Assembly (NCBI RefSeq): GCF_003342675.1
Contig: NZ_CP031147.1
Location: 1-64,000 of the forward strand
DNA length: 64,000 nt
Direction: 5' to 3'
DNA from: Haloplanus rubicundus
GTDB lineage: Archaea; Halobacteriota; Halobacteria; Halobacteriales; Haloferacaceae
Shown here piece by piece: positions 11,055 to 33,282 of this stretch. The notes beneath the pieces were generated by a model. It saw only the letters and a list, made by a program, of their open reading frames with translations, did no database searches and had not been told where the DNA came from. Position 1 is the stretch's first letter; the number at the start of each line of letters is the position of its first letter. Both the position numbers and the translations under genes were made by a program.

Positions 11055-14000
11055 TCAGTCGATTGTCCAGGTTTCGATGGTGCCAAAATTCCCGACGACG
11101 ACCAGTTTATCACCGGCGTGGGCGGGTTGTGTCGCTATCGAGTTTTTTGGCCCGGTTTTCCCTATTTCCCGATTCCAACACGCTTCGAGCGAGTCGCTGT
11201 CGTAAGCGTGAACTTCCCACTTGAACGGAACGTACACGCATCCCTCGTCGGTGACGAACGGCGTCTTGAGTTCAAGTCCTTCGCTATCGTCGGCACCGCT
11301 CGCCGACAGCGTCCTCTCCAGTTTCATTTCCTCTGGGTCGAACATGTATCCGAATATTCCAGTCCTAACCCCGACGAAGACCCGGTCGGCGACCACGGTC
11401 GGCGCCACGGGAGATGTTCCTTGCAGATCTTTTTGAGCGAACTGTTTTCCATTATCCTCCGGGTTTAGGCCGACCAATCTTCCTTCTTCTGCCCGTTCCG
11501 TCACGACGAACACCGCATCTTCGGTGACCGAAACCGGTGCGACGATATCTTCGCCCACGTTCGTGGTCCATCCCCACTCCTCGTCAATGGGCATTCCTCT
11601 TGCTTCGACCAACTGATTGCCGGCCACGTACACGGTCCCGGAGTGCACGGCCGGTTTGGTGGTAACCGTTTCTAGGCCGTCGTACACTCTGTAATCCCCG
11701 CTCTCGCTCTCGAAAGACCACAACTCCCCTTCGGTCGAACCGACAAATACCCGCCCCTCCCACACCGTCGGTGTGCTGATTTCACCGTCTATCTCCTTGC
11801 TCCACGCCACCTCCTTTGAGGTCACGTTAAACGCGCACACGGCATCGTCGGTTCCGAAGTAAAGCCGGTCGCCGTCGGTCGTGGGTTCCGTCCTGATGTC
11901 TTCGATGTGGGTCGGGTCATCCCAGACCTCCTCGCCATTCTCCGCGTCAAGGGCCACTATCCTGCCGTTCTCGCTCACGATGTACACTGTGTCGTCGATA
12001 ACAACCGGTGATAAGGGGGTGCCCGATATGCGGAACGTCCACTTTCCCTCTACCGTTCCTTCGGTCTTCCCGTCGACGTATCCCGTGTTGGCCGCGTTAC
12101 ACCGGAACTGGGATAACGACAGCAAGTTGCGTGATCCCTCAATTCCGTCGAGACCGGAACTCGACGACTCGCTTCCGACATCGCCCCGATCTGTCCCGTC
12201 TTTCGCCGTCGTCCCCGCGTCGTCCGAACCGCCCGTCTCTTGATCGCCCCCGCTTGCCGCTGGGGTGCCACCCGCCACGGCTCCACCGCCGTTCGACTCG
12301 TTGGACAGGGCCCGTTCGACGTGTCTCCACTCCTCGCCGTCCCGCTCCAGGGCGGGGAAGATGGGCCCGTCCGACTCCTTACAGTCCCTGATGAACTTGG
12401 CGATATCGGTCCGGCCGGGGTTCTCCTCGAGCGCCGAGATCAGAGTTCCGGCGTCGGGTGTGACGATCTGGCTCTCATAGATCTCATCGAAATTCTCGTT
12501 CCGCAGCTCCGAACGGAGAGTTGCTATCTCGTCTTTGGACACCGTCGACTTCTCGGAGCCCATTGCCCAACCAACGACGTCTTTGTTCCTAGTGAGAACG
12601 ACGGCAACGACGGCAACCACCGCGACAGCGCCACCGCCGACGAGAGCCATCCGCGTCGATGTCACCTCCGGAATGCCAATACTGCTCGGGACCACTCCCA
12701 AAGACGGAAAGCCTCGCCGCCACACGAAGAACGTCCCGAAAACCAGCACAACCGCGCCTGCGGCTATCAGTCTTAACCCCACCGTCCCGAAGCCGGTTTT
12801 GCCCGGTTTCACGGAGGTGTTCTTTCCACCACGGAAGTCGGTGACTTTCTTCCGCCAGTCGGCGAACCGGGGTCGGGCGTCGACGGCCCGCCACACCAAG
12901 ACGGCTACGAGTCCGAGGCCGCCGGCGAGAATCAACCACACCGATATCCCTTGGAGGATACCCGGACGGGTCGGAACGGGGATGTCGGTTCCCAGCATCA
13001 CGGCGCCTGCGACGCCTGCGGCGACGAGGGCCACGAGGAGCACGACACCCCGCAGCTTCGATCCGACGTCCGACTCTTGGGGAGTTGAGGCCGACCGAGC
13101 CGACACCGTCTCTTCGAGGCGGTCCGCGACGGCCCCCGTCTCGTCTACGAGTCGGTGAGCGATCCGCCGCACCGGGGAGGCGGCGGCCCGTACCACGGTC
13201 ACCGCGAGGACGACGCCGCCGAGCAGCGTTGCCCACAACAAGACCTCGAGAACCACCAGCCAGTACTGCTCGACGACGCCGACCACGACCGCGACCGGCG
13301 ACGAGAGATAGTAGAGCGCTGCGGTGGCCGCTAGGCCGAGCGCCACGGGTCCGTACCGGTACCCAACGTCCGCCGGCTTCGAGATGATCCAGACCTCGTC
13401 GAACGCGTCTTTCAGGACCGCCCTCGCACGGTCCCGACCGTCCATCTCGTTGCGTTCCCGACCGGCCACGTCGGCGATGTCTCGGAGGGCCTCCTGGAGC
13501 TTCCCGACGGCCCCAGCCCCGCCGGACAACTCTGACTCGGTGTCGTCGTCCCCTTCCGCGTCGTCCTCGCCGGAACCGCCGACCGAACCGACGGCGGGCC
13601 GTAACGTGCGCCACGCCAAGGTCGCCAGTGCGGCCACGACAACGACGACCGCGACGGCACTCGCTACGATGTACCACGCGGGGAACGGAGTTCCGGTCGG
13701 GACGACCATCCCCAGCGTTCCCCGCATCGGCAACCAAGTAGGCACGACAATCTCCAGTTCGCGCGTGAGGAGTTCGGACGCGTCGTCGAGATGGAAGTAT
13801 GCGAGGACCACGATACCGACTAGGAGGGCGCTCACCCCGGTCGTTTTCGCGAACAGTTCGACGAGCGGCGTCCACGACGCCGGCCGGAACACGACTCCGA
13901 CCGCGTCGTCGATGTCGGCCTCTCGCAGGGCGTCGACCGGCTCCGGGGACTCGTCGCGCAACTGGTTCGTGGCGTTCACCATCTCGGTTTCTAGTTCGTC

Positions 14001-14609
14001 GATACGTTCCGCGTCGAAGCGCTCGAGGGTCGCCTCGGTCAACCCCGTGTGTGACCCGCCCGGTCTGATGACGATGTCCGCATCCGCCACTGCTCGGGCG
14101 TTCCGTCCGTAACTGCTGATCGCGATGCTGTACTCGTCGTCGAGTTCGTCCCGCAGGTATCTGAACAGCCTACCGGCTTCTTTGCGGGTCGTCGCTACGA
14201 AGTCGACTGCTTTGTCCTTCCTCCGAAGCGTCGTCACCAGTTCGTCGAGCGAGGTTCCGGGGCTCGGCGGTTCGACTGCGACCGTTCCCTCGGCTTCCCC
14301 CTCGTGCAATGCCTCGTACTCCGGGGAGTCGTCCCACTGGATGCGCCACGTGGTGTCCTCGAGTGCGTCCTCGGCGTCGGCTAGGAACGAGTCGAAGACG
14401 TCCCCTTCGTCGTCTAAGTACTCGAAGATTATCTGTTCCGGTGCGGTGGAGATGCGAACCTGCGCGTAGCAGCGGAACCGCCCCTGACCGGGTTCGTAGA
14501 ACAGTTTCACCCCGTTCTCGTGGAGACTGCGGATCGTGTCGGCATCACCCACTCCACCGGACTTCAACAGGGCGTCGCCCTTCTCGGTGTAGGCCTGAAA
14601 CCCGCTCAT
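11055..14609 (-). CDS. Giant multi-span membrane protein with C-terminal PQQ-type beta-propeller
   Basis: The 1184-residue protein has an N-terminal soluble region (about 1-235), several membrane spans scattered between about 240 and 710 (for example VSALLVGIVVLAYF, VASAVAVVVVVAALATLAW, VVLLVALVAAGVAGAVML, MALVGGGAVAVVAVVAVVL), an acidic linker, and from about 870 to the end repeated beta-propeller blades of the PQQ/quinoprotein type (WTFRISGTPLSPVVIDDTVYI, VALDAENGEEVW, RTEPTTDGDRLYFGTDD, STPTVWEGRVFVGSTEGELW). Such propellers usually bind proteins or ligands; PQQ-enzyme residues are not evident. Its ATG overlaps the stop of the upstream membrane GTPase gene (ATGA), so the two are translationally coupled. 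It is the last gene of the operon that begins with the tubulin-like gene. A scaffold or sensor role is inferred. Confidence 0.8.
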   Translation of the reverse strand: MSGFQAYTEKGDALLKSGGVGDADTIRSLHENGVKLFYEPGQGRFRCYAQVRISTAPEQIIFEYLDDEGDVFDSFLADAEDALEDTTWRIQWDDSPEYEALHEGEAEGTVAVEPPSPGTSLDELVTTLRRKDKAVDFVATTRKEAGRLFRYLRDELDDEYSIAISSYGRNARAVADADIVIRPGGSHTGLTEATLERFDAERIDELETEMVNATNQLRDESPEPVDALREADIDDAVGVVFRPASWTPLVELFAKTTGVSALLVGIVVLAYFHLDDASELLTRELEIVVPTWLPMRGTLGMVVPTGTPFPAWYIVASAVAVVVVVAALATLAWRTLRPAVGSVGGSGEDDAEGDDDTESELSGGAGAVGKLQEALRDIADVAGRERNEMDGRDRARAVLKDAFDEVWIISKPADVGYRYGPVALGLAATAALYYLSSPVAVVVGVVEQYWLVVLEVLLWATLLGGVVLAVTVVRAAASPVRRIAHRLVDETGAVADRLEETVSARSASTPQESDVGSKLRGVVLLVALVAAGVAGAVMLGTDIPVPTRPGILQGISVWLILAGGLGLVAVLVWRAVDARPRFADWRKKVTDFRGGKNTSVKPGKTGFGTVGLRLIAAGAVVLVFGTFFVWRRGFPSLGVVPSSIGIPEVTSTRMALVGGGAVAVVAVVAVVLTRNKDVVGWAMGSEKSTVSKDEIATLRSELRNENFDEIYESQIVTPDAGTLISALEENPGRTDIAKFIRDCKESDGPIFPALERDGEEWRHVERALSNESNGGGAVAGGTPAASGGDQETGGSDDAGTTAKDGTDRGDVGSESSSSGLDGIEGSRNLLSLSQFRCNAANTGYVDGKTEGTVEGKWTFRISGTPLSPVVIDDTVYIVSENGRIVALDAENGEEVWDDPTHIEDIRTEPTTDGDRLYFGTDDAVCAFNVTSKEVAWSKEIDGEISTPTVWEGRVFVGSTEGELWSFESESGDYRVYDGLETVTTKPAVHSGTVYVAGNQLVEARGMPIDEEWGWTTNVGEDIVAPVSVTEDAVFVVTERAEEGRLVGLNPEDNGKQFAQKDLQGTSPVAPTVVADRVFVGVRTGIFGYMFDPEEMKLERTLSASGADDSEGLELKTPFVTDEGCVYVPFKWEVHAYDSDSLEACWNREIGKTGPKNSIATQPAHAGDKLVVVGNFGTIETWTID

Positions 14610-16633
14610 CGCTGGAGTCGTTCAAGTAGCTTCTTCGATCCCCGGAGTGCCGGAATGTTGTCGTCGCTGAGGTCGATTCGCAGATCATCGTCCTCCTCGT
14701 CTTCGTCGTCCTCAGTCTCGTGCTCCTCTTCGTACTCGATTTCCGGCCGTTCTTCGACTTTGTACCACACCGGCCAGAAGTCAGCGGTGCCGTAGAATCC
14801 GCTGTTTTCGGTGTCGAAGTGTCCGGTCGCCTCGGCCAGTACGTCCGTGACGACGTAGTTTCGGAACTGGGGGTAGTTGCTCCACGCCGTCGTACCGTTC
14901 TTGTTCTTGAATCCCTCGACCGCGTAGTCGGCCTTCGTTATGGACAGCAGGAAGTCCGTACTGGCGAACTGGTCGTCGCCCTGTAACTGCTCGTACCACG
15001 TGAGGTAGTCTTGGGGAACATCCCGTCGCTCCTTCTTGTAGTACCATCGCTCACCCTCGTGGTCGATCATCCAGTGGCTTTTGATCTGCTCGTTCTCGCC
15101 GATGTCGAGTACGTTCCGTATCTCGTCCTCGGATGCGTCGGCGGACACGACGCGGCTGTCGAGATACTCGGGTGGGTTGCCCTTGGCGAGTATCGGCCCG
15201 AAAAAGTCGTCCAGTGGGACGGTCAACACGATGCGGTCGGCGTGGCGCACGCAGTCCCAGATCGCCCCGGCAATTTTGTCGGAGACGTCGTAGCCCTCGT
15301 CTAAATCGAGGCTGGCGTCGTCGTCGGCTAGTATCTCGGTCGTCTCCTTGAGTTCTCGCTCGGCGTCCCGCCAGTTCGTGGCCTCGGTCACGAGGTCCGT
15401 CTCGCTGTCTTCCCGTACCTCCGCGAGTACCTCTCCGAGGAGTGCGCCACCGTAATCGACGGTCTGGAGGGTGACCTTCTCCCGGAGGAGTTCCCCGACC
15501 ATATACTCGATCTCGATGAACGTGATCTCCTCGTTCCCCGTTGATGGAGGGAACTTCCCGTCCAAGATGCGACCGCGTGGTACCGAGATGCCCTCGGATT
15601 CGGCAGGATCGAGTTCGTGCGTGTCCTCAAGCGTAATGTGGAGCCCGGCGAACTCGGCGGTCTTTCCGCTCCGTGCCGGTCCGATCTGGATCACGTTCCG
15701 CGTGCTCTCGTAACTCGTGAACTTGTACAGGGCGAACAGGAAGACGGCACTCGCCGGAATGCCTCGAAGTGCCGTATTGTGGAAAATCAACCGCTCGAAT
15801 TCGAATCCAGCTGCCCGCCAAGTCAATCCGTTCGGGGCCCGCAAGAGCCACGGGTGGTAGGCGACGAGCGCTTCCACGGCCGAGTACCCGATGATAAGGA
15901 GCGTTACGACGAAGAGCATCCGCGGGGGGTTCACCCGCACCGGGCTGATCGTTATCCACCTGACTCCTGGAACCGGGATGTCGAGGATCAGGCGCCGGTC
16001 TCCGACTGTAATCCACTCGAGTCGTGGCGCGGGAATCTGGATCCGGGGTCCCACGGAGTGGTTGATCTCGATCGGCCCGTCGTCTCCGCCCGACCCGGCG
16101 CGTTCGTCCGGTTCGTCGAAGAACTGGCTTTTCACCTTGCTCACCAGCGATTCGAGGTGATCGGACCGCACGCCTGCGACGAACATCCCGACGAGGACGA
16201 GGGGGGCCACCAAGACGAGTCCCCACGAGGCGCTGGTAGCCAACTCGACAAACCTATCGACCAGCCCCGTCTGCTCTATCAGCACCTCCGTGCTTCCGAA
16301 GAGGAGAGCGAGCCAGAAGAGCACCCCTTGGACCCGCTTGTACGTGTCGACCAGCATGGCGAGTGCGATGCCGAGGTAGATGCTGATGCCGACGGCGAGC
16401 GGGACGTTCCGGTTCAGATACGGTTGGCCGAAGTTGATCACTCCTTGGTGGATCTCCCGGACTAGCCCCCACGGCTGGTCGTTCCACCCCCACACGATCA
16501 TCTCGAAGATCGGCAACACCATCAGCGCGAGCACGACCGCATAGACGACAAGCCAGAAGAGTTCCTTTTGCTCGCGGTCCGACATAGACAACGTGATGCC
16601 CACGCCCATGTCGCCATCCATGTCGGAATTCAT
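14606..16633 (-). CDS. Membrane-anchored P-loop GTPase-like protein
   Basis: From the ATG at 16633 the protein is about 675 residues. Membrane spans occur at about 25-48, 77-95, 103-115, 133-153, 238-260 and 290-305. Immediately after comes a P-loop domain: Walker A/G1 GPARSGKT at about 318-325, a G3-like DYGG at about 393-396 and a G4-like TKAD at about 566-569, so it is most likely a TRAFAC-type GTPase. The C-terminus is very acidic. The gene lies 43 bases downstream of its partner gene at 16677 and overlaps the propeller gene by 4 bases. In membrane-linked GTPase systems such proteins control assembly at the membrane; that role is inferred here from its place beside a tubulin-like protein. 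Confidence 0.8.
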   Translation of the reverse strand: MNSDMDGDMGVGITLSMSDREQKELFWLVVYAVVLALMVLPIFEMIVWGWNDQPWGLVREIHQGVINFGQPYLNRNVPLAVGISIYLGIALAMLVDTYKRVQGVLFWLALLFGSTEVLIEQTGLVDRFVELATSASWGLVLVAPLVLVGMFVAGVRSDHLESLVSKVKSQFFDEPDERAGSGGDDGPIEINHSVGPRIQIPAPRLEWITVGDRRLILDIPVPGVRWITISPVRVNPPRMLFVVTLLIIGYSAVEALVAYHPWLLRAPNGLTWRAAGFEFERLIFHNTALRGIPASAVFLFALYKFTSYESTRNVIQIGPARSGKTAEFAGLHITLEDTHELDPAESEGISVPRGRILDGKFPPSTGNEEITFIEIEYMVGELLREKVTLQTVDYGGALLGEVLAEVREDSETDLVTEATNWRDAERELKETTEILADDDASLDLDEGYDVSDKIAGAIWDCVRHADRIVLTVPLDDFFGPILAKGNPPEYLDSRVVSADASEDEIRNVLDIGENEQIKSHWMIDHEGERWYYKKERRDVPQDYLTWYEQLQGDDQFASTDFLLSITKADYAVEGFKNKNGTTAWSNYPQFRNYVVTDVLAEATGHFDTENSGFYGTADFWPVWYKVEERPEIEYEEEHETEDDEDEEDDDLRIDLSDDNIPALRGSKKLLERLQR

Positions 16634-16676
16634 GATAAACCCTTTGTGCCATGTCCACTCGACCCGTGGGTGGCGA

Positions 16677-18152
16677 TCATAGGTCGTCGAGGATGTCGTC
16701 CGCCCCGGACGGGTCGGTGTCATCCTCGAGCACACAGTCGAATGCCCGCACGGTACACTCCTCGATGCCGACCGCTCCGGCCACCTTGTCGAGATCGGCG
16801 CTCCCCGGCTGTAGCGTGACGCTACTGCCCTCCTGTCGTTCCAGCAGTTCCCGTGCTGTTTCCGACCCCGTCAGCACGACGACGACGTCCTTATTCGGCA
16901 CGTCCTCGTACGCCTCCCCGATTCTGTCGTACAGTTCGGTGTACGGGTCGTTGTCCCCGTACCCGGCCGGTGGATCCACGTCGTTCAGTTTCTCGTCGTC
17001 CGGGTCGACGAGTTCGTCGAACGGCACGACCAAGAGGAGTACGTCGGCCCGGTCGAGTCGCGCCAGAAACAGTTGCTCCCGCCCGCGACCGGGCCGAAGC
17101 CAGTTCGGAACCGCCATCCTCAGCGCCACAGACACGTAGGAGCCGGCTTTCCAGTACCACTTCTTCCGACGCTCGGCCTTCGTCTCGAGGTACTCCACGT
17201 CGCCGGGTTGGGGCGGGTCGTGGATGTCGAGTCGGATGACCTTGCGGCGTGAAAACCAACCCCCCCGTCTGAACTTGAACTCCGCGGGACCGATATCGTC
17301 CGACACGTCGTCGCGGCTGTCGGCTCTGACCACTTTCTTCAGATCTCTGGCGCCACTCTCCGAATCGGCCGTTCCCGCAACGCCGCTGTAGTCGTCGTCG
17401 TCTTCCGCGTACGCGAAGAGGCCGCCGAGCAGGAGCGTCCCTGCCACGTCCGAGGGACTTACGACCCTGATCGTTGTGTTGCTCGAGTACTGCGTGAAAA
17501 CGCCGAGAACGCCTATCAGAAGGAGGCTTCCGAGGATATCGCGCGCCAGACCGGCGGTGCGAAACGACACCTCTCCAACTGGGCCGGTCGCCAACTGTTC
17601 GGTCCGGCGGTTCCACAGCCACGGACTCGTGTAGTCGAGGTGGACCTCCCAGAACCCGACGAAGAGGACCAGTGCCGTGACGAGATACAGACCAGCCGTC
17701 GCCGCCGGGAACTGACGCGGGTCCAAGTCCGTTCCCGTGGACCCCCGGAGTATCCCCGTGAGGACCCCGACGACGATGCCGAGAAGGCCCGCCCACCAGT
17801 GGTCGAGCCACGAAACCTCTTCCAACCAGACGCCCTCGAGCCAGAGCAACGCCACGAACGCCGGGAATCCGAAAAATAGCAGGATGAGTCCTTGGGTCGT
17901 CTTGTACCCGTCGGTCGCAAAGAGGACGATCCATATCAAGAGCATCCCGGTCGGCCCAACTACGGCGATGTCGATGTCTTGGCCAAGCAACCCCTCGACA
18001 ACCAAGTACGTCGCGTTCCAGACGAAGGCGTCCCTGGTCCATGCGGCGGCCAGCATGGGCGCAACGAGCCAGAGCGACACCCCGATGACCAACAGCGATC
18101 CGAGCACGACGAACACGTCCCGGCCCCGCTCGGTGAGCCTGATCTGGACCAT
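16677..18152 (-). CDS. Multi-span membrane protein with degenerate GTPase-like domain
   Basis: The start is the ATG at 18152 (MVQIRLTERGRDVF), 4 bases after the stop of the tubulin-like gene. The first 280 residues hold about seven membrane spans. The C-terminal soluble part (about 300-490) has the layout of the neighbouring membrane GTPase (IRLDIHDPPQPG where G3 would be, DRADVLLLVVPFDE, KDVVVVLTGSET where G4 would be) but no Walker A motif. I infer a paralogue that has lost nucleotide hydrolysis and pairs with the intact GTPase, a common arrangement in heterodimeric GTPases. No homologue is named with confidence. Confidence 0.75.
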   Translation of the reverse strand: MVQIRLTERGRDVFVVLGSLLVIGVSLWLVAPMLAAAWTRDAFVWNATYLVVEGLLGQDIDIAVVGPTGMLLIWIVLFATDGYKTTQGLILLFFGFPAFVALLWLEGVWLEEVSWLDHWWAGLLGIVVGVLTGILRGSTGTDLDPRQFPAATAGLYLVTALVLFVGFWEVHLDYTSPWLWNRRTEQLATGPVGEVSFRTAGLARDILGSLLLIGVLGVFTQYSSNTTIRVVSPSDVAGTLLLGGLFAYAEDDDDYSGVAGTADSESGARDLKKVVRADSRDDVSDDIGPAEFKFRRGGWFSRRKVIRLDIHDPPQPGDVEYLETKAERRKKWYWKAGSYVSVALRMAVPNWLRPGRGREQLFLARLDRADVLLLVVPFDELVDPDDEKLNDVDPPAGYGDNDPYTELYDRIGEAYEDVPNKDVVVVLTGSETARELLERQEGSSVTLQPGSADLDKVAGAVGIEECTVRAFDCVLEDDTDPSGADDILDDL

Positions 18153-18156
18153 TCGC

Positions 18157-21100: not shown

Positions 21101-21594
21101 TTCGAGTAATTGTCGACGAGTAGGTCGTCGTCATCTTCCAACCACCACGCCCGCAGCCCGGAGGCGATTTCCTCAACCCTCGCCGGCGCAGTCAGTCCCA
21201 CCTTGTCGGTGTACCTGTTTCCGATGCTGTCGATCAGATTGATGTAGGTGAGTTCGGTGTTCACCAGATCCTTGTCGACATCGCTTTTGCCCGCCAGCGC
21301 GTCGACCTTCTTGTTGATTTGATTCACCCGAGCTTTGTCGGAGTCTCGGTCGTCTGTGTCCGTGTCGACGATATACGCGTCGACATCTGGTCCGGAGTTG
21401 CCCTCTCGTTCCTCAATCGCCTCGCGCAGGATCCACTCCGTCTCCATGAACTCGTAGACGACCTGCTTCCCGGCGTTCCCCAGTCCAATCAGCATGTCGG
21501 GAAGAGTAGCCCGGATGTCGTCTGTACCCCCACCGCCATCGGTGAGGATCGTCCGACTGCCGTCCTCCCCCCTACCTCCTTCCTCTTCGGACAT
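18157..21594 (-). CDS. Tubulin/FtsZ-like GTPase with long C-terminal extension
   Basis: The N-terminal about 400 residues are a tubulin-superfamily domain: LIGLGNAGKQVV at about 35-46 (first nucleotide loop), YIVDTDTDDRD at about 74-84, and the signature GLGGGTGSG at about 207-215, followed by LYLLGIIPAIGEQTRRRANAHGAL. This matches the Tubulin_2 type (the FtsZ-like families proposed by comparative genomics to act in membrane remodelling) better than cell-division FtsZ. The remaining about 740 residues are acidic and helical with coiled-coil character, giving 1145 residues against about 350-400 for FtsZ. It heads a four-gene minus-strand operon (tubulin-like, inactive-looking membrane partner, membrane GTPase, propeller) with spacings of 4, 43 and -4 bases. 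It should bind GTP and form filaments or rings in the cytoplasm; this is inferred from the family. Confidence 0.85.
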   Translation of the reverse strand: MSEEEGGRGEDGSRTILTDGGGGTDDIRATLPDMLIGLGNAGKQVVYEFMETEWILREAIEEREGNSGPDVDAYIVDTDTDDRDSDKARVNQINKKVDALAGKSDVDKDLVNTELTYINLIDSIGNRYTDKVGLTAPARVEEIASGLRAWWLEDDDDLLVDNYSKGVLRRRALSKALFHASDTGTDNPLDPILTGEGDESVAYMVVGLGGGTGSGIFLDIAKKIKEEVGRLYLLGIIPAIGEQTRRRANAHGALSELEYLARTDEDEGPFHNTILMPFGALDNRNSNGQKDEFDEAAANVIVSSLNFDSNDQAQLLSPSHDLPKYAPFTVAVPQTIRFEIGKAETAKDKIDDFVDDKLSELETELKLYDRLDTYIDAHLNNDVSDPLQTAQDGGDVTNNQFNLSETEATELRSRFDRLRYEILEEPIFDALNYEAHDEWKGDIDSQLGEVPDDLEGAARDERTVLEASLQAETLNQTPEQRYQREDKDEELDRFVRRELLAIRARANLKRARSLVDDDAIDSGLDNAMQSDNTTVPAELRQSESDARERRNDLEVKKEAVEAVAAEMQGEGVLEREGKAWKADVQSTVEKILAIRHEGDEVQNLLKNLEGAIDDAIQAIDDADRTNELREQDMPDIFGFDEFDDLNEKLADVGMEEEQIEKSDIRPSIDALREAKRIKLNAKGMSIGQKLVSLVPLITVETEGGGEYEAELNSVDDNLFNYQDDFGESFYCRFTAKGEFTNKADMLDGTLDEHVKAVAGALEDRLADLSFDREWFLEKVDAEWEADGEPDISWPGDVDKHVDDLKTELKTTDADDASDLLDALLQSEDEGGLGNTDAGVSHRILEAGIFGPVDDLESQLEDAFEEANEMYERYHELLDIIGEEGESYEEGQRRPNINFDTTTTNGNYVSRISASDSDRLVNRSDMVDAELHLDEAEKLENQITNNFRDNANDVRLPLKEREIKINRDVTEGTEDTIYEHVAVQAFMGRAFGERDPEEYGAEDVEETLDGLLSLRPDDNGYASATVPYGAPWDISLVTFVGGIFLDNLAPVQNSSKGYHLAHEEQREKLAQSIRVRHTHGLDGLDKSLTPDTGKGAFVYRDPLIDLDDPTERSAFVDATEEERMEIFERKTESEDFESTVDLNDSS

Positions 21595-21862: not shown

Positions 21863-23935
21863 TCACACGAGTGCGGCCTGCCTGAATTTCTCTACCGCGC
21901 GGTTCGCTGCCTCCTGCTCCGCCTCGTTGCCGGTGAACCTGAGGTCACGGACAGGGCCGACCGCACCGGCGTCGGATACCAGATCCGGCCGGGCGACCGC
22001 TAAGTCACCGAGGCACTCGGTGGCTTGGACCACCGTCTCGGTGTCGTCGGCGTCGATGGCCTCAACGAGTCGTTCGGCGTCGTGCACGTCGAACTCGTCT
22101 GGATCGAGGGATACGAGTTCGCCGAGTGACCGCATCTTCTCGGTCGTGTCGGGGCCGGTCGCACCGGCGGCACCCGCGTCCGAGTCGTCCAAAGAGGCGT
22201 ACGGACGGCGTTCCGTCCTGTCGTCCTCCTTCGAGGAGTTCACGCGGTCAGCGTCGAGTCCCGACAGTCTCTCGCCCACGAGACCCCCGATTGCGCTCCT
22301 AGCCTCGCCGACGACCCACGCTGTCCAGTCGGTGAGCGCGGCCGCCCCCCCGCCAATCCACAGCCCCACGTTCCAAGCCTGCTCGGCCACGCCCTTGCCG
22401 ACCGCTGCGAGTTCCGCCCTCGCCTTCCACCCGACGGTGAAAACGGACACCAAGACCGTAAGTGCGACCAGCACGGGGAGTCCGGGGAGTCCCGACAGTA
22501 GTGAGGATCCGCCCCCCTCCTCGGTCGGGGTTGGGGTCTCCGTGGCCATCGCCGCCGCGCCGTCGCTAGCCGGGGTCGCCGTCTGCGTGGACGTAAGCGT
22601 GGGTGTGAGTGTGGGCGCAGGCGTCGATGCCGCCGTCGGCGTCAGCAACCCGGTCGTGTCGACCCGGAACGCCTCCCGGTGTTCGCCGCCGCGGACATCG
22701 GTCACGTACACGACCAGCGTCGTCTCGTCCGGGGCCGCGCCGATGCGTCCTTGGAAGCCGACGCGCTCTCGTGTGTCACCCTCGTAGGGAGTGAGTGTCT
22801 CGATCGTCTCGCCGTCCGGACCGACCGACTCGAGGACGACTCGCGTGACGCGACTGTCGCTCACCTCGCCCGAGAACGCCACTTCTCCCTCGTATCCGGT
22901 GGCGATCTCGTGCTCCAGTTCGACCGTCGGTTCCAAGTGACCGCGGTAATCGAAAGGCAGCTCGCGAACCCGCTCGTTCCCGGCCACGTCCGTCGCGACG
23001 ATCCGAACCGTCTCTCCCTCCCCGACATCGGCCGTGAACTCGAAGTCGGTCGCCAGCCGCTCCCGAGCCGGCTCTTTCGTCGTGGGGTTCAGCACGAACG
23101 ACTCTTGGCTCGTCCCCACGAGCCGGTAGCTCAGAGAGTTGAACTTCACGTTGTCGGTGACCGTCCCGGCGACGTGGATGCGCCCGCCGTCCTGCTCGAA
23201 CCGGTCGATGTCGATCGCCGGCAGCTGCGCGTCGACCACGTCGATCGTCATCTCGTGGCGCCGTCGCTGACCGTTCACGTCGACTGCCTCCACGACGACC
23301 GTGTTTTCGCCCAGCCCGAGCAACATCGGCTGCGAGAACCGCTCGCCAGGGTCGTCGATGCGGTACGTGTCGCGTGTCACTTCGGACTGGCCCGCGAATA
23401 TCCACTCGTAGGTGTGGCGGATCCGGACCCTCTTGATTCCGCTCTGATCCTCCAGATCCGCCGCGAGCGTGACGTTGGCGTGGTCGACGGTCTCTGTCCC
23501 CGGGTTCGTGCTGGACTGGAACGGTGACGTGTACAGTATCTTCGGCCCCGTCGAGTCCTTCGTCACCGTGACCGTCAGCTGTCGCTCCTCGCCGCTCTCG
23601 GTCACCGTGCGCACCGAAATCTCGTGTTTACCATCGTCCAGATCGAGTTCGACGAGCTCCATGACCGACTCCGAATCGGGCGTGAACGACTGCCGGACGC
23701 TCCGGTTCACTAGAATTTCGACCCTGCGGAGCGATCCGTTCGCCGTCGCCTCCACGCGAACGCTCGGGTCCCCTGTCACCACGAGTTCGTCACCGTCTCT
23801 CACGTCCTGTCCGTCGATACGAACGTCGAGCGTCGGTGTCCCCGCCGCCGTCGTGACGAGCGCCGCGACGACCACGAGCGTCACGGCCACCACTCTGACG
23901 CCCCGAAGTGTCCGTCCGTCCCTCATCGGCCACAT
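21863..23935 (-). CDS. Exported Ig-like surface protein with membrane anchor and cytoplasmic tail
   Basis: The 690-residue protein starts with a signal peptide (VVAVTLVVVAALVTTAAGTP, residues about 14-33). Several beta-sandwich domains of Ig/cadherin type follow to about residue 420 (SVRVEATANGSLRRVEILV, DQSGIKRVRIRH, NTVVVEAVDVNGQ, TVRIVATDVAGNERVRELPFDY). Then comes a Thr/Pro-rich stalk, a membrane span at about 485-503 (LPGLPVLVALTVLVSVFTV) and a cytoplasmic tail of about 185 residues whose end (LVEAIDADDTETVVQATECLGDLA) looks like HEAT/ARM-type helical repeats. The topology suggests an outside sensor or adhesin that contacts cytoplasmic partners. It is divergent from the J-associated gene at 24119 and lies upstream of the tubulin-like gene in the same direction. 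Confidence 0.75.
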   Translation of the reverse strand: MWPMRDGRTLRGVRVVAVTLVVVAALVTTAAGTPTLDVRIDGQDVRDGDELVVTGDPSVRVEATANGSLRRVEILVNRSVRQSFTPDSESVMELVELDLDDGKHEISVRTVTESGEERQLTVTVTKDSTGPKILYTSPFQSSTNPGTETVDHANVTLAADLEDQSGIKRVRIRHTYEWIFAGQSEVTRDTYRIDDPGERFSQPMLLGLGENTVVVEAVDVNGQRRRHEMTIDVVDAQLPAIDIDRFEQDGGRIHVAGTVTDNVKFNSLSYRLVGTSQESFVLNPTTKEPARERLATDFEFTADVGEGETVRIVATDVAGNERVRELPFDYRGHLEPTVELEHEIATGYEGEVAFSGEVSDSRVTRVVLESVGPDGETIETLTPYEGDTRERVGFQGRIGAAPDETTLVVYVTDVRGGEHREAFRVDTTGLLTPTAASTPAPTLTPTLTSTQTATPASDGAAAMATETPTPTEEGGGSSLLSGLPGLPVLVALTVLVSVFTVGWKARAELAAVGKGVAEQAWNVGLWIGGGAAALTDWTAWVVGEARSAIGGLVGERLSGLDADRVNSSKEDDRTERRPYASLDDSDAGAAGATGPDTTEKMRSLGELVSLDPDEFDVHDAERLVEAIDADDTETVVQATECLGDLAVARPDLVSDAGAVGPVRDLRFTGNEAEQEAANRAVEKFRQAALV

Positions 23936-24118
23936 CTACAACCCCGACGTGCAAAAAGTAGTCCGTCTATCCCGCCGGCCTCAGCCCTCCGTCCCGTGAT
24001 AGATCCTTCCGTGGCACACCGAAGTCGAGCACCCGTCGGTGACCTCCACGCGTCACCGACGGCATCGGAGGTTCGTGCACCACAAGTTTATTTCCGCGTT
24101 TCCAGTTATTATGTCACG
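23936..24118. promoter_or_regulatory. Divergent promoter region at the cluster centre
   Basis: This 183-base gap lies between the minus-strand surface-protein gene and the plus-strand gene at 24119. AGTTTATTT at 24085-24093, about 30 bases before the ATG at 24119, is a good TATA-like box. It is the control point from which the two halves of the cluster diverge. Confidence 0.4.
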
Positions 24119-24520
24119 ATGCCAATCGACTGGCCCGAGGGATTCGACCGTACCCCGCCGGAACGGCGGGAGCCGTACCCGCACAACTTTCGCGTCTCGC
24201 GGCGTGACGCCTTCGAGAATATTCTCACCCAACTCAAACGCATGCAAGGGGCCTCGAACGTCCGCATCTCGTCCGAAGCCGAGCACCTCACTCGCGACAT
24301 AGATGTCCCGCGGGCGGACGCATCGCCGGACGACCCAGGGGTGGTCGTTCGGTTCGAACGGGACAGCAAGGAGTACGTACTGCCGTGTGACCGCTGGTCG
24401 TCGCTCCGCGACAACGCACAGGCGATCGCGAAGTACGTTGAGGCCAAGCGCGCCCTCGACCGCTACGGTGTCAAGACGTACGAGGACGAGTTCGAGGCCC
24501 AAAAGGTTCGCGTCGACTAA
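24119..24520 (+). CDS. Small protein of the family usually fused to a J domain
   Basis: The 133-residue protein starts MPIDWPEGFDRTPPERRE. Its features (a WP.GF.RTP opening, a central PDDPGVVVRF.RD.KEYVLPCDRW..LRDNAQAIA.YVEAKRALDR block) match the N-terminal region of haloarchaeal and haloviral proteins that, as I recall them, often carry a C-terminal J domain. No HPD motif is present, so the J domain itself is missing. Because the same cluster encodes Hsp70 and GrpE, a substrate-recognition or co-chaperone role is plausible. It is the first gene of a plus-strand unit; the transglutaminase-like gene begins 7 bases after its stop. The ATG at 24111 is out of frame. Confidence 0.7.
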   Translation: MPIDWPEGFDRTPPERREPYPHNFRVSRRDAFENILTQLKRMQGASNVRISSEAEHLTRDIDVPRADASPDDPGVVVRFERDSKEYVLPCDRWSSLRDNAQAIAKYVEAKRALDRYGVKTYEDEFEAQKVRVD

Positions 24521-24527
24521 CCACTAC

Positions 24528-25604
24528 ATGACGCCCGAAGAGAACGACTCGAGTGGACGGCCCCTCAACCCGACGAGAGCGGACGGCCCGGTGCTTCGGC
24601 CCGACGGCGGTCGGTCGACCGATCGCACGTCAGCACCGGGGTTCGATGGGTGGAGCGGGCAGTCCAAGCCGGGCAACACCGACGCGACGTACACCAGGAC
24701 GTTCGAGTGGTCGTTCCGCGGTGACCGCCTCGAGTGGGACATCGAGATCCCGATCTCGACCTACGAGTACTGCACCAACCGGGCCCGCACCGGCCAGTAC
24801 GCGATCTACCTCGCGGACCCGCTTCAGCGACCGTTCGTCGACTCTCTCGTCGAGCGATTCGAGAACCACTGTCGCGATCGCTCGCTCGGCGAGCACTCCC
24901 GACTGTACGCAGCACTCAGGTTCGTCCAGCACCTCGAGTACACCCGCGATGTCGACGACACCGGACACGAGACGTATCCGAAGTACGCCATCGAGACGCT
25001 CGTCCACCGACGCGGGGACTGCGAAGACGGGACGATACTCCTCGGGACCCTCCTGTGGGCGATGGGCTACGACATCGCCGTGCTCCTTCTCCCCGACGCC
25101 CAGCACATGGTCTTGGGTGTGGCCGGCGAGGAGTTCTCGGGTTCCAGCGTCGAGTACGAGGGAACTTCGTACTACGTCGTCGAGACGACGGATGTGGGCT
25201 GGGACGTCGGCGAGTTCCCCCCGCGGTACGCGAACACGTCTGTTCGTCCCCATCACCCCGAAGCACAGCCCATCCTCCTCCACGAGTGGGAGGCGACACC
25301 CCGGAACGAAGATTCCGCCGAGACACTATCTGGGAACGGAAACCTCGTCGACGTGACCGTCCACGTCTCGAATTTCGGAGACGCTCCAGCGGACGATATC
25401 AGCGTCCAGATGGAGTTCGAACGCCGGGATGGCGATGTCGTCGGTCGCCGGGCACTCACGGTCGACGACGGTCCACTCCTCCCGAGCGACTTCACGAAGT
25501 ACGAGGGCACCCTCCGGGTCGACACCGAGCGGAAGGTTCGCGGACGCTGCCAACTCGGTATCGGCAGGCAACTCCACGACGAAAGCGAGAGCGACTGGCA
25601 GTGA
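24528..25604 (+). CDS. Transglutaminase-like cysteine peptidase-fold protein
   Basis: The 358-residue protein holds a transglutaminase-like (papain-fold) core: YAIETLVHRRGDCEDGTILLGTLLWAMGYD with the nucleophile Cys at residue 165, then HMVLGV with His at residue 193, and a downstream YYVVETTD that offers the third Asp. These are the three catalytic landmarks of the superfamily, so an active amidase, protease or cross-linking enzyme is likely. The N-terminal 60 residues are Pro/Gly-rich and disordered. The C-terminal about 100 residues form a beta-rich domain (VTVHVSNFGDAPADDISVQMEF) of CARDB-like type. There is no signal peptide, so it is probably cytoplasmic. It is co-directional with, and 7 bases after, the J-associated gene. 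Confidence 0.8.
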   Translation: MTPEENDSSGRPLNPTRADGPVLRPDGGRSTDRTSAPGFDGWSGQSKPGNTDATYTRTFEWSFRGDRLEWDIEIPISTYEYCTNRARTGQYAIYLADPLQRPFVDSLVERFENHCRDRSLGEHSRLYAALRFVQHLEYTRDVDDTGHETYPKYAIETLVHRRGDCEDGTILLGTLLWAMGYDIAVLLLPDAQHMVLGVAGEEFSGSSVEYEGTSYYVVETTDVGWDVGEFPPRYANTSVRPHHPEAQPILLHEWEATPRNEDSAETLSGNGNLVDVTVHVSNFGDAPADDISVQMEFERRDGDVVGRRALTVDDGPLLPSDFTKYEGTLRVDTERKVRGRCQLGIGRQLHDESESDWQ

Positions 25605-25617
25605 CGCTCAGCCCCCG

Positions 25618-25626
25618 AGTTTTATT
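25618..25626 (+). promoter_or_regulatory. TATA-like box for the GrpE gene
   Basis: AGTTTTATT lies about 35-40 bases before the ATG at 25659 and only about 15 bases before the ATG at 25638. That spacing favours 25659 as the true start. Confidence 0.4.
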
Positions 25627-25658
25627 GACTGTCAGAAATGTTAGTCGCGTACCGACCG

Positions 25659-26765
25659 ATGACAGGGAACGACTCGACGGACGACGAGGATGGTGCTCGG
25701 CGGGTTCCGATCGAAAATCACGACGACGAGAAAGCGGAGTCGGAAGAGGAGACCGGTGAGGACGAAGACGGTCCCACGGCGATTCCGGTCGAGCGCCCCG
25801 ACGACGAGAAAGCGGAGCCGAGCGACGAGGCAGGCTCGAGCAACGATGACGGGGCAGGTGAGGGCACCGTCGACTTCACCCCCGACGCGGACCGATGGCT
25901 GGGGAAGCTCGACGACATCAGGAAGCGGTGGCGAGAGGCAAAAGAGGAGGAACAGAAGCAGAAACTCCGCGACAAATTCGAGAAGCTATCATCCGAACTT
26001 CATGATAAAGGTGTTCTCGACGACGACGAAATGGCGGACCTAGGCGAATCCGACCAACCGGAGGAGACGAACGACGACGCCGAAAGTGACCGACAGGCCG
26101 AGGCAGACAACACCGTGGAAGCCGTCGAACCGGAGGAAACGGAGCCAGACGAACCGGATAGCACCGACGACGTCGAAAGTGACCGACAGGCCGAGGCGGA
26201 CGACACCGTGGAAGCCGTCGAACCGGAGGAAACGGAGCCAGACGAACCGGACGAGTCCGTCGGGATTGACGATGCCGCGGAGGGTGATGAACAGGCCGAA
26301 ACGGAGGCGGGCGAGCCGGCCGACGCCGAGGAACTCAGGGCCGACTTGGAGGAGGCGCTCAACCGAATCGATGACTTAGAGGAGTTGATGTCCGAGTACC
26401 AGCGGAAGAACGAGCGCGAACACAGGCTACTGGAGAAAGACGCGCTGGAGAGTTTCGCGACGCGGATGTTCGGAGTTCGGGACACGCTCGAACGGCTGCT
26501 CGAGTACGGCGAATGGGACGACGAGTCCGCCGACCAGCTCCGTTCGCTCCTCCGTCAGTTCGACCAGCAGCTCACGGCGAAGCGCATCGACGCGATCGAC
26601 CCCGACCGCGGCGACGAGGTCGACAGCAGCAAACACCGAATCGAAGGGCAAGAGGAGGCCGAGGACGTCGGTCCGGGCCGCATCCTCCGCGTCGAGAGCA
26701 AGGGATACGAAATATCCGGGTACCCGCTCCGACCGGCCGAGGTTGTCGTGACGAAAGGCGAGTGA
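25659..26765 (+). CDS. grpE: GrpE-type nucleotide exchange factor with long acidic N-terminus
   Basis: GrpE releases ADP from Hsp70. The C-terminal about 150 residues contain the family pattern: a long dimerisation helix (LRADLEEALNRIDDLEELMSEYQ), then ALESFATRMFGVRDTLERLLEY, and the beta-wing near the end (GRILRVESKGYEISGYPLRPAEVVVTKGE). The first about 220 residues are extremely acidic and include a 31-residue tandem repeat (about 142-172 and 173-203), so the protein is 368 residues against about 200 for ordinary GrpE. An in-frame ATG at 25638 would add 7 residues. The gene is convergent with the Hsp70 gene, their stops separated by about 9 bases. It appears to be a dedicated, cluster-specific paralogue rather than the housekeeping grpE. 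Confidence 0.85.
   Translation: MTGNDSTDDEDGARRVPIENHDDEKAESEEETGEDEDGPTAIPVERPDDEKAEPSDEAGSSNDDGAGEGTVDFTPDADRWLGKLDDIRKRWREAKEEEQKQKLRDKFEKLSSELHDKGVLDDDEMADLGESDQPEETNDDAESDRQAEADNTVEAVEPEETEPDEPDSTDDVESDRQAEADDTVEAVEPEETEPDEPDESVGIDDAAEGDEQAETEAGEPADAEELRADLEEALNRIDDLEELMSEYQRKNEREHRLLEKDALESFATRMFGVRDTLERLLEYGEWDDESADQLRSLLRQFDQQLTAKRIDAIDPDRGDEVDSSKHRIEGQEEAEDVGPGRILRVESKGYEISGYPLRPAEVVVTKGE
26081..26253 (+). repeat. 93-bp tandem repeat inside the GrpE gene
   Basis: The segment starting CGAAAGTGACCGACAGG at 26081 recurs at 26174, exactly 93 bases later, with only a few differences over about 80 bases. It preserves the frame and duplicates an acidic 31-residue block. Near identity at the DNA level points to a recent duplication. 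Confidence 0.85.
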
Positions 26766-26774
26766 ATCGGGGCG

Positions 26775-28523
26775 TCAGTCGTCGTCGCCGGCTGCCTGCT
26801 GCTTGCTCGTTCCCGACCGGCCGTCGGCGCTACCACCCTCGACGTGAATCTTGCCGAGTTCGTCGTCGTCGAGTTTCGATTCCTCGGGCTTGACGAGCTC
26901 CGCATTTACCGACAGGACGCCATCCTTGTCGACGGCGAACGTGACTTCGACAACCGGTTTGCGGGCGGGGAGTTCCGGAATCCCCGCGACTTTCCAGTCT
27001 CTGAGCTGTTCGTTTTTCGAACGGTCCTCCTCGTGTTCACCCTGGTAGACCTTGATTGGCAGTTCGGTCTGATTGTCCTCTTTCGTGGTGTACTTGGCCG
27101 ATTCATCGACGACTTCACCCTCCTCGTCGGGCAACACCGTGTTGTGGGGGAGGAGGATGTCCATCTTATCCGTCCCGAGGTCGGTACCCAGTGACTGTCC
27201 GAGAATACCCTTTGTTTTGATCGGCCCCTCACCACCACCGCCGCCTTCGATATCGTGTTCCTCCGCGATGTGCCGGTCGCGCTCGCCCTTGGTGTCGAAC
27301 GACGCGTCGCAGTGCCCCTTGGGGCACGTGAACTGCTCGTCGTTGCCGTCCTGAGAGTGGTCGTCAATGTGGTCGGCGAGTTTCCCCCAGAGTTCGAACG
27401 TCTCGTCGCAGTCCGAGACGGGACAGGCAAACGACTCCCCCGCGACGTCCCCGTCTTGGTCGGCCATGATGGCCGCTCCTTTGGCGACGGCCCAGTCTAG
27501 GTCGCTCATCTGGGTCGGTTCGAAGCCGAACCTGTCCTTGACTCGCTCTTTGACGGCGGGCATCTGGGACGACCCACCGACGAGCAACACCGTGTCGACG
27601 TCTCCGGTGTCGATTCTCGCCTTGTCGAGCGCCTCGTCGATTGGGGCCATCGCGTCGTCGAGGAGGTCCGACACCTCGTCCTCGAATTCGCTTCGTTCGA
27701 TCACCCGTTCGGTGATCCCGATGGGGTGGGCGTCGACCATTCCGAGCATCGTCGCGTTGACCTCGGTCTGCTCGTGGCCCGAGAGGCTGATCTTCGCATC
27801 CTCTGCAACTTCCCGGAGGTTCTCCCGCGTCTCGTCGTTCTGCAGGGGGTCGACACCCTCCTCGTCTTCGATTTCCTCGGCGAGGAGATCGACCAGTCGC
27901 TGGGTGAAGTCCTGCCCCCCGAGGTGGTTATCGCCGGCGGTCGCCAGTATCTGGTACTCGTTCTCATCGATCTCCATCACCGAAATGTCGAGGGTTCCCC
28001 CGCCGAAGTCGTAGACGAAGACCGTACCGTTCTGGTTCTTGTCGAATCCATGAGAGATGGCCGCCGCCGTCGGCTCGTGGAGGAGATCGATGTTCTCGGC
28101 CTCGAATCCGGCCTGCTTGGCCGCCGCACGGGTATCCGACTTCTGATCGACGGTGAAATACGCCGGAACCGTGATCTGTGCCCCCGTGATGTCCTCACTG
28201 CCGTCGCCGTAGTCCTCCGCGATGGATCGCAGTTGCTTCAGGATCTCCGCAGAGACGTCAACCGGCGTGGGTTCGACGCCGTCGATGGGATAAGCGTGAT
28301 CCTCTCCCATCTCCCGCTTGGCGTTCCGGATCACCTGGTCGGGGTTATTTTTCGCCTTGTTTTTCGCCCGCTTCCCCACGCGCACCTCCTCGCCGTCCTC
28401 GGAAAAGTACACGACCGACGGAGTGAGTCGGTCACCCTCGTTGTTCACCATGAGTTCTGGGCTGCCAGCCTCGACGATGCTCACTGCGCTCCGTGTCGTC
28501 CCGAGGTCGATTCCGATCCTCAT
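26775..28523 (-). CDS. Hsp70/DnaK-family chaperone with two C2H2 zinc fingers inserted at the interdomain linker
   Basis: From the ATG at 28523 the protein is 582 residues. The nucleotide-binding domain is complete (IGIDLGTTRSAVSI at 3-16, PAYFTVDQKSDTRAAAKQAG at 120-139, YDFGGGTLDISVMEI at 171-185, LVGGSSQMPAV at 314-324). The substrate-binding beta domain follows at about 435-545 (TEDNQ-like TKEDNQTELPIKVYQGE, VEVTFAVDKDGVLSVNA). Between them, where DnaK has its short hydrophobic linker, sit two C2H2 fingers: C367-x4-C372-x12-H385-x3-H389 and C400-x4-C405-x12-H418-x4-H423, then a Gly-rich stretch. The helical lid is largely absent. The start was chosen because Hsp70s begin with the IGIDLGTT strand. 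The fingers would add nucleic-acid or protein binding at the allosteric hinge. It is convergent with grpE and downstream of the VWA gene. Confidence 0.9.
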   Translation of the reverse strand: MRIGIDLGTTRSAVSIVEAGSPELMVNNEGDRLTPSVVYFSEDGEEVRVGKRAKNKAKNNPDQVIRNAKREMGEDHAYPIDGVEPTPVDVSAEILKQLRSIAEDYGDGSEDITGAQITVPAYFTVDQKSDTRAAAKQAGFEAENIDLLHEPTAAAISHGFDKNQNGTVFVYDFGGGTLDISVMEIDENEYQILATAGDNHLGGQDFTQRLVDLLAEEIEDEEGVDPLQNDETRENLREVAEDAKISLSGHEQTEVNATMLGMVDAHPIGITERVIERSEFEDEVSDLLDDAMAPIDEALDKARIDTGDVDTVLLVGGSSQMPAVKERVKDRFGFEPTQMSDLDWAVAKGAAIMADQDGDVAGESFACPVSDCDETFELWGKLADHIDDHSQDGNDEQFTCPKGHCDASFDTKGERDRHIAEEHDIEGGGGGEGPIKTKGILGQSLGTDLGTDKMDILLPHNTVLPDEEGEVVDESAKYTTKEDNQTELPIKVYQGEHEEDRSKNEQLRDWKVAGIPELPARKPVVEVTFAVDKDGVLSVNAELVKPEESKLDDDELGKIHVEGGSADGRSGTSKQQAAGDDD

Positions 28524-28619
28524 CCCTATTGACCAATCCTCATGCTGGTTATTATATATTTCCACCAGCCAGACGGGTCAGTACGATTTCAAGAGGACGC
28601 GTCGGCTGTGAACGAGTCG

Positions 28620-29882
28620 CTACCTAATCGACACCGAGTTCGCATCGTCGTCATCGGCGTCATCGTCGTCTTGATCCACCCTAGACTTGCGAATCTTGTC
28701 CCCTGTATCCTCGATGTCGTCGAGGTCCGCGCGGAGTTTCTCGGCAGTGTCCTCGAAGCCCTGCTTTTCGAGGTCGTCGATCTGGTCTTTGACCGCCGCT
28801 TCGTCCGCGTCGGGTTCGGACATCTCGGCCCGCACTTTCGCCGCCTCGCGTTCCTTCTCGATGTGCGCTCTCTTCTCCGGGTCGTCCGTGTACGTCGCTT
28901 CGACGCTCGCGGTCGCAATCGTGCGGTCGTCGTCGTCGCGCAGTTTGACGTCGGCGAGCGAGTACGTGATCCCGGTCTGGTTGGGCGTTCCCAGCACCTC
29001 GAAAGTCAGCCGGTGCTCCTCTCCGGCGATGAGCTTGTCGGGGAACGGAATCACGACGTCGTCGCCGTCGAAGGAGAGCGGCACGGACTGCCTGCTCGGC
29101 GCGGCGAAGACCGCCTGTTCCTCCTCGTACGCGTAGAACGGGTTGCCGAAGTCGACCCGGAGCGTCGGGTTGGTCGCGATGGTGTCGCCGGCCTCCCGGA
29201 TCCGGTCCTCCAGGAACCCCTGGATGTCGTCGCCGTCGACGATGTGAGCCGGCTTGCCACCTGAGTTCTTCGTCAGCGAGAGGAGTACGTCCTCCTTGTA
29301 GTCCTCGCCGATACCGCCCGCACTGATCGAGATGCCATCGACACTCATCTCGGCGGCGAGGTCCTCGAAGTCGTCGAGGTCGCGGTTGTCCAGTCCGTCC
29401 GACAGGAGGACAACATCGCGGCTGACGATTCCTGACCCCGACAGGTCGGTGAACTGTGACCGGGCCTCGACGAGGGCGTCGTAGATGTCGGTGCCCCCAC
29501 GAGCGTGTATCTCCGCATCCTCGTCGCTCTCTGCCACCATCTCCTGGACGTCCTGCTGGTCGGCGTCGCCCCAGCGCGTCATCTCGAGATGGACCTCCGA
29601 GGAGCTGGCGAACGAGACGATGCTCACGAGATCGTCCGATTCGAGCTCGTCGAGAACCGAGAGCATCCCCTCGCGCGCCCAGTCCATCTTCGCCTCCCCA
29701 TCGGGCGGGTTCCTCGTACCGTCCACACCCCAGTCCATCGACCCACTCGCGTCGACGACGAGGACCACCTGTCGCCTCGTCTGCCGCTCCTTGACGAGAG
29801 GTTCGACGACGACTTCGACGACCGATTTCCCGCCGTTTTTCGGGAACTCCCGGTCGACTTCAGCTCGTAGAGTCGCGGTCAT
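28620..29882 (-). CDS. VWA-domain protein
   Basis: The 420-residue protein has a von Willebrand factor A domain with a full MIDAS: VVLVVDASGSMDW at about 38-50, the Thr in GGTDIYDAL and the Asp in LLSDGLDN. A metal-dependent protein-binding function is therefore expected. The middle is a beta-rich domain of the type seen in Ca-activated chloride channel-like proteins (LRVDFGNPFYAYEEEQ, IPFPDKLIAGEEHRLTFEV). The C-terminus is a charged helix ending in an Asp-rich tail. It lacks a signal peptide and is likely cytoplasmic. It is 96 bases upstream of the Hsp70 gene in the same direction and probably shares its transcript. Confidence 0.85.
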   Translation of the reverse strand: MTATLRAEVDREFPKNGGKSVVEVVVEPLVKERQTRRQVVLVVDASGSMDWGVDGTRNPPDGEAKMDWAREGMLSVLDELESDDLVSIVSFASSSEVHLEMTRWGDADQQDVQEMVAESDEDAEIHARGGTDIYDALVEARSQFTDLSGSGIVSRDVVLLSDGLDNRDLDDFEDLAAEMSVDGISISAGGIGEDYKEDVLLSLTKNSGGKPAHIVDGDDIQGFLEDRIREAGDTIATNPTLRVDFGNPFYAYEEEQAVFAAPSRQSVPLSFDGDDVVIPFPDKLIAGEEHRLTFEVLGTPNQTGITYSLADVKLRDDDDRTIATASVEATYTDDPEKRAHIEKEREAAKVRAEMSEPDADEAAVKDQIDDLEKQGFEDTAEKLRADLDDIEDTGDKIRKSRVDQDDDDADDDDANSVSIR

Positions 29883-33276: not shown

Positions 33277-33282
33277 CTCCGG

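Follow-up and report, generated by a model that had tools for sequence, protein, structure and literature searches.

Ten adjacent genes (A to J) at positions 11055-29882 of the Haloplanus rubicundus DNA analysed here, a stretch of 64,000 nucleotides that we call the window, may encode a haloarchaeal FtsZl1-type system, distantly related to the DO-GTPase/tubulin/HSP70 conflict systems of bacteria or a variant of them, in which a regulated polymer would form at the membrane; we judge the case for and against this reading to be evenly balanced. It builds on the gene content of the cluster, its linkage across haloarchaea, the homology of C to B, the tubulin fold of the model of D and a separate clade of zinc-finger Hsp70s. 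All ten open reading frames (ORFs) are open, without internal break. D, C, B and A form a single minus-strand operon, with gaps of 4 bases between D and C and 43 between C and B, and an overlap of 4 bases between B and A; E lies 268 bases upstream of this operon, and F, G and H on the plus strand converge with I and J on the minus strand. The short ORFs that flank the cluster gave no Pfam match, a weak check of the claim, made in an earlier note written from the sequence alone, that genes are broken on both sides. The replicon measures 225,191 bases and is separate from the 3.4-Mb contig of the same genome, and is therefore probably a plasmid or minichromosome. A Pfam scan of the ten proteins named D, H, I, J, A and E, and found no convincing family for B, C, F and G. 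The earlier note had taken the ten genes to be intact, placed D in the tubulin superfamily, paired a membrane GTPase with a partner lacking a P-loop, and recognised a GrpE, an Hsp70, a VWA protein, a propeller protein, an immunoglobulin-like (Ig-like) protein and a transglutaminase-like protein, with the Hsp70 and GrpE as a dedicated pair; the results that follow bear these assignments out. Nine genes had thereby been named, but F had not, and C had not been recognised as a full-length dead homologue of B.

D (18157-21594, minus strand, 1145 residues) is an FtsZl1/Tubulin_2 protein. It scores 38 bits against the Tubulin_2 profile (PF13809; curated cut-off 27, E 1.5e-9), carries GGGTGSG at residues 209-215, and conserves the T1, T2 and T4 motifs in the alignment. 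An AlphaFold model, with 36 homologues in the alignment, reached a predicted local distance difference test (pLDDT) score of 79.9 and a predicted template modelling (pTM) score of 0.62; its top Foldseek match was CetZ2 (E 1.1e-5), with TubZ listed second. VIA-align superposed the model on 320 of 330 residues of CetZ1 (Z 22.8, root-mean-square deviation 3.7, model range 30-1066), on about 290 of 305 residues of FtsZ, and on about 363 of 425 of tubulin. Since the aligned range reaches residue ~1066 and leaves hardly any target residue unmatched, it would be the far C-terminus of D that supplies the activation domain, and the helical stretch at ~340-975 would therefore be an insert within the tubulin fold. 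As modelled, then, the fold is interrupted by a helical insert of ~600 residues, which probably enters between S7 (328-338) and S8 (979-987), a placement taken from the order of DSSP elements rather than from a residue-level alignment. We had also considered that D might be without the tubulin C-terminal domain, and rejected this since the predicted model covers that domain in VIA-align.

Directly downstream of D lie C (16677-18152, minus strand, 491 residues, five transmembrane helices) and B (14606-16633, minus strand), a membrane GTPase of 675 residues in which transmembrane helices are followed by a G domain (309-675) with GPARSGKT and TKAD. The B family is marked by GPxxSGK[ST], D[YH]xGE and, in many members, TKxD, and the second of these motifs is common to the family and the DO-GTPases. 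In the AlphaFold model of B (pLDDT 75.8), N-terminal transmembrane helices precede a TRAFAC-like G domain, whose structural neighbours are YcjX (Foldseek E 8e-5), Arf, Rag and Rab, with VIA-align Z scores of ~12 (12.7); when PDB sequences were searched with the B profile, the matches were limited to weak ones to G-alpha and P-loop proteins. Comparison of the C profile with the B profile by hhalign showed full-length homology (probability 100, E 1.3e-42), and the P-loop is absent from C and its 10 orthologues (11 of 11). Judged by sequence, C is thus a dead, P-loop-less homologue of B over its full length, a pseudo-GTPase. The window's B did not match the Pfam DO-GTPase models, nor did any other protein of its own genome. 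When the B profile was aligned with an archaeal DO-GTPase2 protein (L182) by hhalign, the G domain matched through the P-loop and DYAGE (probability 93.8, E 1.8e-7), which points to a distant relationship between B and the DO-GTPases. L182, from genome G452, is the sole protein above the DO-GTPase2 cut-off in a sample of 148 genomes from the phylum. Because tblastn of archaeal DO-GTPase2 against plasmids found no match, the comparison was made without a deep DO-GTPase profile.

A search of 391 haloarchaeal genomes with PF13809 led to a comparison of about 70 tubulin-like loci, whose ORFs were called with a composition score and then compared by iterative profiles. Where the tubulin gene is long (1040-1190 residues), a B/C-type membrane gene lies directly downstream on the same strand in 45 of 51 cases, typically 0-20 bases away; this gene has a P-loop in 34 of the 45 and none in 11, and loci with a P-loop-less C usually possess a P-loop-bearing B as well. 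The conservation of neighbours raised in the earlier note thus holds for these 45, but fails for 6 of 51, among them the locus of the nearest relative of D (L080, 7239-10490, minus strand), which is from the same genus, shares 39% identity and is without a B/C neighbour. The T4-loop GGG of the L080 tubulin is apparently missing, and this copy is possibly decaying. In a tree of the tubulins, the loci that have a C gene are all placed in a single clade, a fast-evolving one (SH-like approximate likelihood ratio test, 100). A second tubulin_2 subtype of 740-960 residues (L133-L147, L083-L086) is also present in haloarchaea, in some cases as tandem pairs or next to small membrane proteins; no B/C GTPase was found in these loci. 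A search for protein-kinase motifs in the tubulin loci found none and a relaxed one three proteins in two loci; given this rarity, the kinase link reported in 2010 is atypical for the loci compared.

Hsp70 together with GrpE was found in 10 of 71 tubulin loci, a within-sample figure, as these genes were counted only within loci taken for tubulin, G or J. Searches with G and J covered whole genomes and took no account of tubulin. For G, the top six matches other than itself (E 4e-98 to 2e-66) are in G215, G204, G202, G239, G033 and G030, each within a tubulin locus, and these six loci are also among the best eight non-self matches of J. With ~3.5 Mb per genome, a randomly placed gene would have a chance of ~1% of lying 15 kb or less from a tubulin gene, although G204 and G215 are close relatives; the linkage of the cluster genes is well beyond chance. 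Module and tubulin stand no more than ~15 kb apart in seven genomes, in shuffled order, and the tubulins found with the chaperone module are of two subtypes, its Hsp70s of two or more lineages. Plasmid p117 of Halorubrum sp. BOL3-1 holds the closest replica of the cluster: read across the start of the record, VWA and Hsp70 genes, then GrpE, transglutaminase-like and F genes on the opposite strand, a membrane protein and the tubulin follow one another in the order of the window. On its other side, the p117 module is flanked by another tubulin, which has a GTPase of its own.

I (26775-28565, minus strand) is a second, divergent Hsp70 (Pfam HSP70, PF00012, E 2e-111), the housekeeping DnaK of the same genome being encoded on the main contig. 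It retains the nucleotide-binding signatures DLGTT and GGGTLD, has a short C-terminus, and carries two C2H2 fingers (zf-C2H2), at residues 381 and 414, between its nucleotide-binding and substrate-binding domains. Two-finger Hsp70s were found in the window, BOL3-1, G215, G204, G239 and G033, and the fingers are absent in G030; in a quick tree, the Hsp70s of the module form a group apart from DnaK. A different Hsp70 lineage stands, with GrpE, beside tubulins with C genes in G217 and G011, where DnaJ-Ig fusion proteins adjoin C and Hsp70. In G350, the Hsp70 and GrpE matches lie within one protein of 1217 residues that also has a kinase-like motif. H (25638-26765, plus strand) is a GrpE with a long acidic N-terminus (Pfam E 2.2e-22). 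F (24119-24520, plus strand, 133 residues) belongs by its family matches to a J-protein family, with matches in 84 of the 391 genomes. In its homologues L203 and L211, a DnaJ domain is present at the C-terminus (Pfam E 7e-10 and 9e-7), and the J-domain is absent from F and from the family copies in tubulin loci.

G (24528-25604, plus strand) is transglutaminase-like: no Pfam model names it, and the family alignment shows that it keeps the conserved Cys (GDCED), His and Glu positions. J (28620-29882, minus strand) is a VWA protein (Pfam VWA_2, E 1.4e-12) with an intact DxSxS motif (DASGS) and with orthologues in tubulin loci; chromosomal VWA relatives exist in ~50 genomes, of which 12 were examined. 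These chromosomal relatives (L162-L173) lie in another conserved operon that has no tubulin and consists of the VWA gene, genes for proteins of ~415 and ~350-590 residues, and sometimes a kinase-like gene.

Two further proteins reach the cell exterior or the membrane. A (11055-14609, minus strand, 1184 residues) has ~8 predicted transmembrane helices and a C-terminal PQQ-type beta-propeller (Pfam PQQ_2, E 1.9e-20). Homologues of its N-terminal domain are found in 32 of 49 long-tubulin loci, and in most FtsZl1 loci the third gene encodes this domain; the C-terminal part varies in relatives elsewhere (carboxypeptidase-regulatory-like, SpaA, Ig, PEGA). An identification of A as GAP1 was not supported by Pfam, GAP1 not being among the 25 families most matched by the A family; A may be a functional counterpart of GAP1. 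E (21863-23935, alternative end 23893, minus strand) is an exported protein that is Ig-like by Pfam (Big_7, Glucodextran_B), and a fibronectin type III profile did not match it. The transmembrane scan shows a signal peptide, the Ig-like domains, one further transmembrane helix and a C-terminal tail, which would be cytoplasmic. No homologue of E was found in the other tubulin loci compared.

Taken as a regulated polymer system, the cluster could work as follows. B and C, an active GTPase and a permanently inactive partner, would sit as a pair in the cytoplasmic membrane with A, and here also E, as sensing or anchoring subunits, and together they would hold and then trigger D. Once recruited to the membrane, D would assemble there in a GTP-dependent manner, and its long helical inserts would stick out from the polymer. 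The chaperone set, made up of the Hsp70 I with D as its putative client, the GrpE H and the J-family adaptor F, would act together with the VWA protein J to prevent D or its partners from assembling, or would dismantle the assembly, so that the system fires only upon a signal such as virus entry or envelope damage.

Several observations weigh against this reading. PADLOC matched none of the ten cluster genes, and a recognisable effector is absent among them. The other long-tubulin clade, which has a single GTPase, is slow-evolving and widespread and therefore suits a standing cellular role. In this B, the Walker-B glutamate of the family is replaced by alanine (VDYGGA), and the predicted T7 region, including its acidic residues, is not conserved among D homologues. 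The DO-GTPase2 model PF19993 matches 16 of 32 B-family members, with a best E of 0.0014, below the cut-off, and GAP1 has no Pfam match among the ten proteins. Lastly, the polymer and the physical interaction between Hsp70 and D are features that we infer. With the evidence on both sides taken together, we keep the polymer reading at an even balance and regard membrane remodelling as its main rival.

According to that rival, the cluster is a standing envelope or membrane-remodelling machine in which a D polymer and the GTPases shape the membrane or vesicles, and the chaperones are general assembly factors. This was proposed for FtsZl1 by Makarova and Koonin (2010, PMC2875224), and it agrees with the wide spread and slow evolution of the single-GTPase clade and with the fact that A, B, C and E are membrane and exterior parts. 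However, the clade of the present copy is patchy, fast-evolving and partly plasmid-borne, its tubulins have nuclease-transmembrane neighbours, and gene content differs among loci; a standing machine is a serious possibility that we nonetheless expect to prove wrong. A role in conflict or defence would fit at least as well as one in the envelope. In its favour, proteins that join an Mrr nuclease to transmembrane helices lie near three tubulins of the C-gene clade, including the replicon's own second tubulin; A differs between loci in its outer part; the spread is patchy and partly plasmid-borne; and a cyclic-oligonucleotide-based antiphage signalling system (CBASS) lies ~17 kb off. The lack of an effector or PADLOC match among the ten genes and the conservative sister clade count against it. 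In its most specific form, which we put forward tentatively and as rather improbable, the polymer reading becomes a chaperone-gated tubulin switch for immunity, where the pair of live and dead GTPases licenses D with its helical arm of ~600 residues in the activation domain, the zinc-finger Hsp70 resets it, and the polymer fires on infection.

It is also conceivable that D does not polymerise and instead serves as a GTP-switch scaffold, its helical arms bridging the membrane GTPases and Hsp70 in a signalling hub, an option kept open in the 2010 paper (PMC2875224). The lack of conserved T7 acidic residues in the family is consistent with this, and an insert of this size in the activation domain could stand in the way of longitudinal contacts. 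We consider such a scaffold unlikely, given that T1, T2 and T4 are conserved, that the tubulin fold is nearly complete with CetZ and FtsZ as best matches, and that the inferred T7 of D itself reads NFDSND.

Less probable still is that D-C-B-A and the chaperone, VWA and transglutaminase-like set are two unrelated neighbouring operons without shared function: tubulin 1 of BOL3-1 has no adjacent GTPase genes and Hsp70 is missing from most tubulin loci, yet the recurrence of module and tubulin within ~15 kb in seven genomes, in shuffled order and with two tubulin subtypes, argues against it. A plasmid-partition cytoskeleton of the TubZ/RepX kind is the least probable of all, for although the 225-kb contig stands apart from the 3.4-Mb one and TubZ came second in Foldseek, an adjacent DNA-binding adaptor is absent, the partners are membrane GTPases, and many relatives lie on multi-megabase contigs.

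Beyond the cluster, the same replicon carries a second tubulin_2 gene at ~216 kb (L052, 7216-12553, ~214-219 kb), which encodes 1101 residues with the T4 loop GGGFGSG. It adjoins the gene of an Mrr-nuclease protein with ~9 transmembrane helices, and the nuclease family is also found by the tubulins in L042 and L077. The CBASS-type set occupies 46609-51397 of the window on the minus strand and comprises a TIR-SAVED effector, an E1-E2/JAB protein and an oligonucleotide cyclase (PADLOC E 7e-128, 0 and 1e-138, respectively); an integrase-like gene follows at 51462-52706. Just past the cluster, at 31025-36899 on the plus strand, are genes for a MoxR/CbbQ-like AAA ATPase, three small proteins and an 875-residue VWA protein; the ATPase and VWA genes may constitute a separate MoxR-vWA system.

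The earlier note had called the full set of genes unusual, which was an overstatement: most of the parts had been predicted in publications of 2010 and 2020, which reduces the novelty of the set. FtsZl1 was described in archaea with a membrane GTPase and vWA, as a protein with an FtsZ-like N-terminal domain and a coiled-coil or helical centre, Huta_2051 being the haloarchaeal type case (Makarova & Koonin 2010, PMC2875224). D resembles it in its GGGTG(S/T)G loop followed by an extended helical region, whose helices cover ~340-890 in the model, with C and B directly downstream and J ~7 kb upstream. The cluster differs from the 2010 loci in its P-loop-less second GTPase, its Hsp70, GrpE and J-family protein, and its transglutaminase-like protein; moreover, tubulin similarity at T6-H7 and in the C-terminal domain could not be identified for FtsZl1 at that time (PMC2875224), whereas the predicted model of D includes a tubulin C-terminal domain.

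Conflict systems with one or two paralogous GTPases together with tubulin, vWA, HSP70 and GrpE were described by Kaur et al. (2020, PMC7159879), mainly from bacteria and "a few archaea", with tubulin and HSP70/GrpE as "non-overlapping" themes of GAP1-N2 neighbourhoods; DnaJ fused to beta-sandwich or Ig repeats is published for the bacterial HSP70 theme (PMC7159879), and G217 and G011 show the same arrangement. The likeness extends to paired homologous transmembrane GTPases, a tubulin with a helical extension, vWA, HSP70 and GrpE, beta-sandwich proteins (some of them DnaJ-fused) and mobile neighbourhoods. In contrast to those systems, the present one is archaeal, merges the tubulin and HSP70/GrpE themes, and has GTPases that are distantly similar, one of them dead. 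Because GAP1 was not found, we did not file the cluster as a DO-GTPase system, which it resembles in the outline of its working. CetZ (4B46, 4B45) shares the tubulin fold and provides the closest solved structures to D, but is without the ~600-residue helical insert. DnaK and other Hsp70s have the nucleotide-binding domain and the beta substrate-binding part in common with I, which differs in its two C2H2 fingers between these domains, its short C-terminus and its separate clade.

Our literature searches found no later study of FtsZl1 or of a zinc-finger Hsp70, and no experimental study of FtsZl1-type tubulins or double-GTPase/HSP70 systems, both of which are genomic predictions. As far as the searches reach, what is new is the merging of the two themes in a recurrent haloarchaeal locus, the conserved dead GTPase partner, the zinc-finger Hsp70, the link between F and J-proteins, and the completed tubulin fold. 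Should the cluster indeed serve in conflict, it would amount to an immune device based on a cytoskeleton and operated by its own chaperone. Set beside the systems of 2010 and 2020, this locus and its p117 relative offer a compact archaeal version with concrete predictions that can be tested in genetically tractable haloarchaea.

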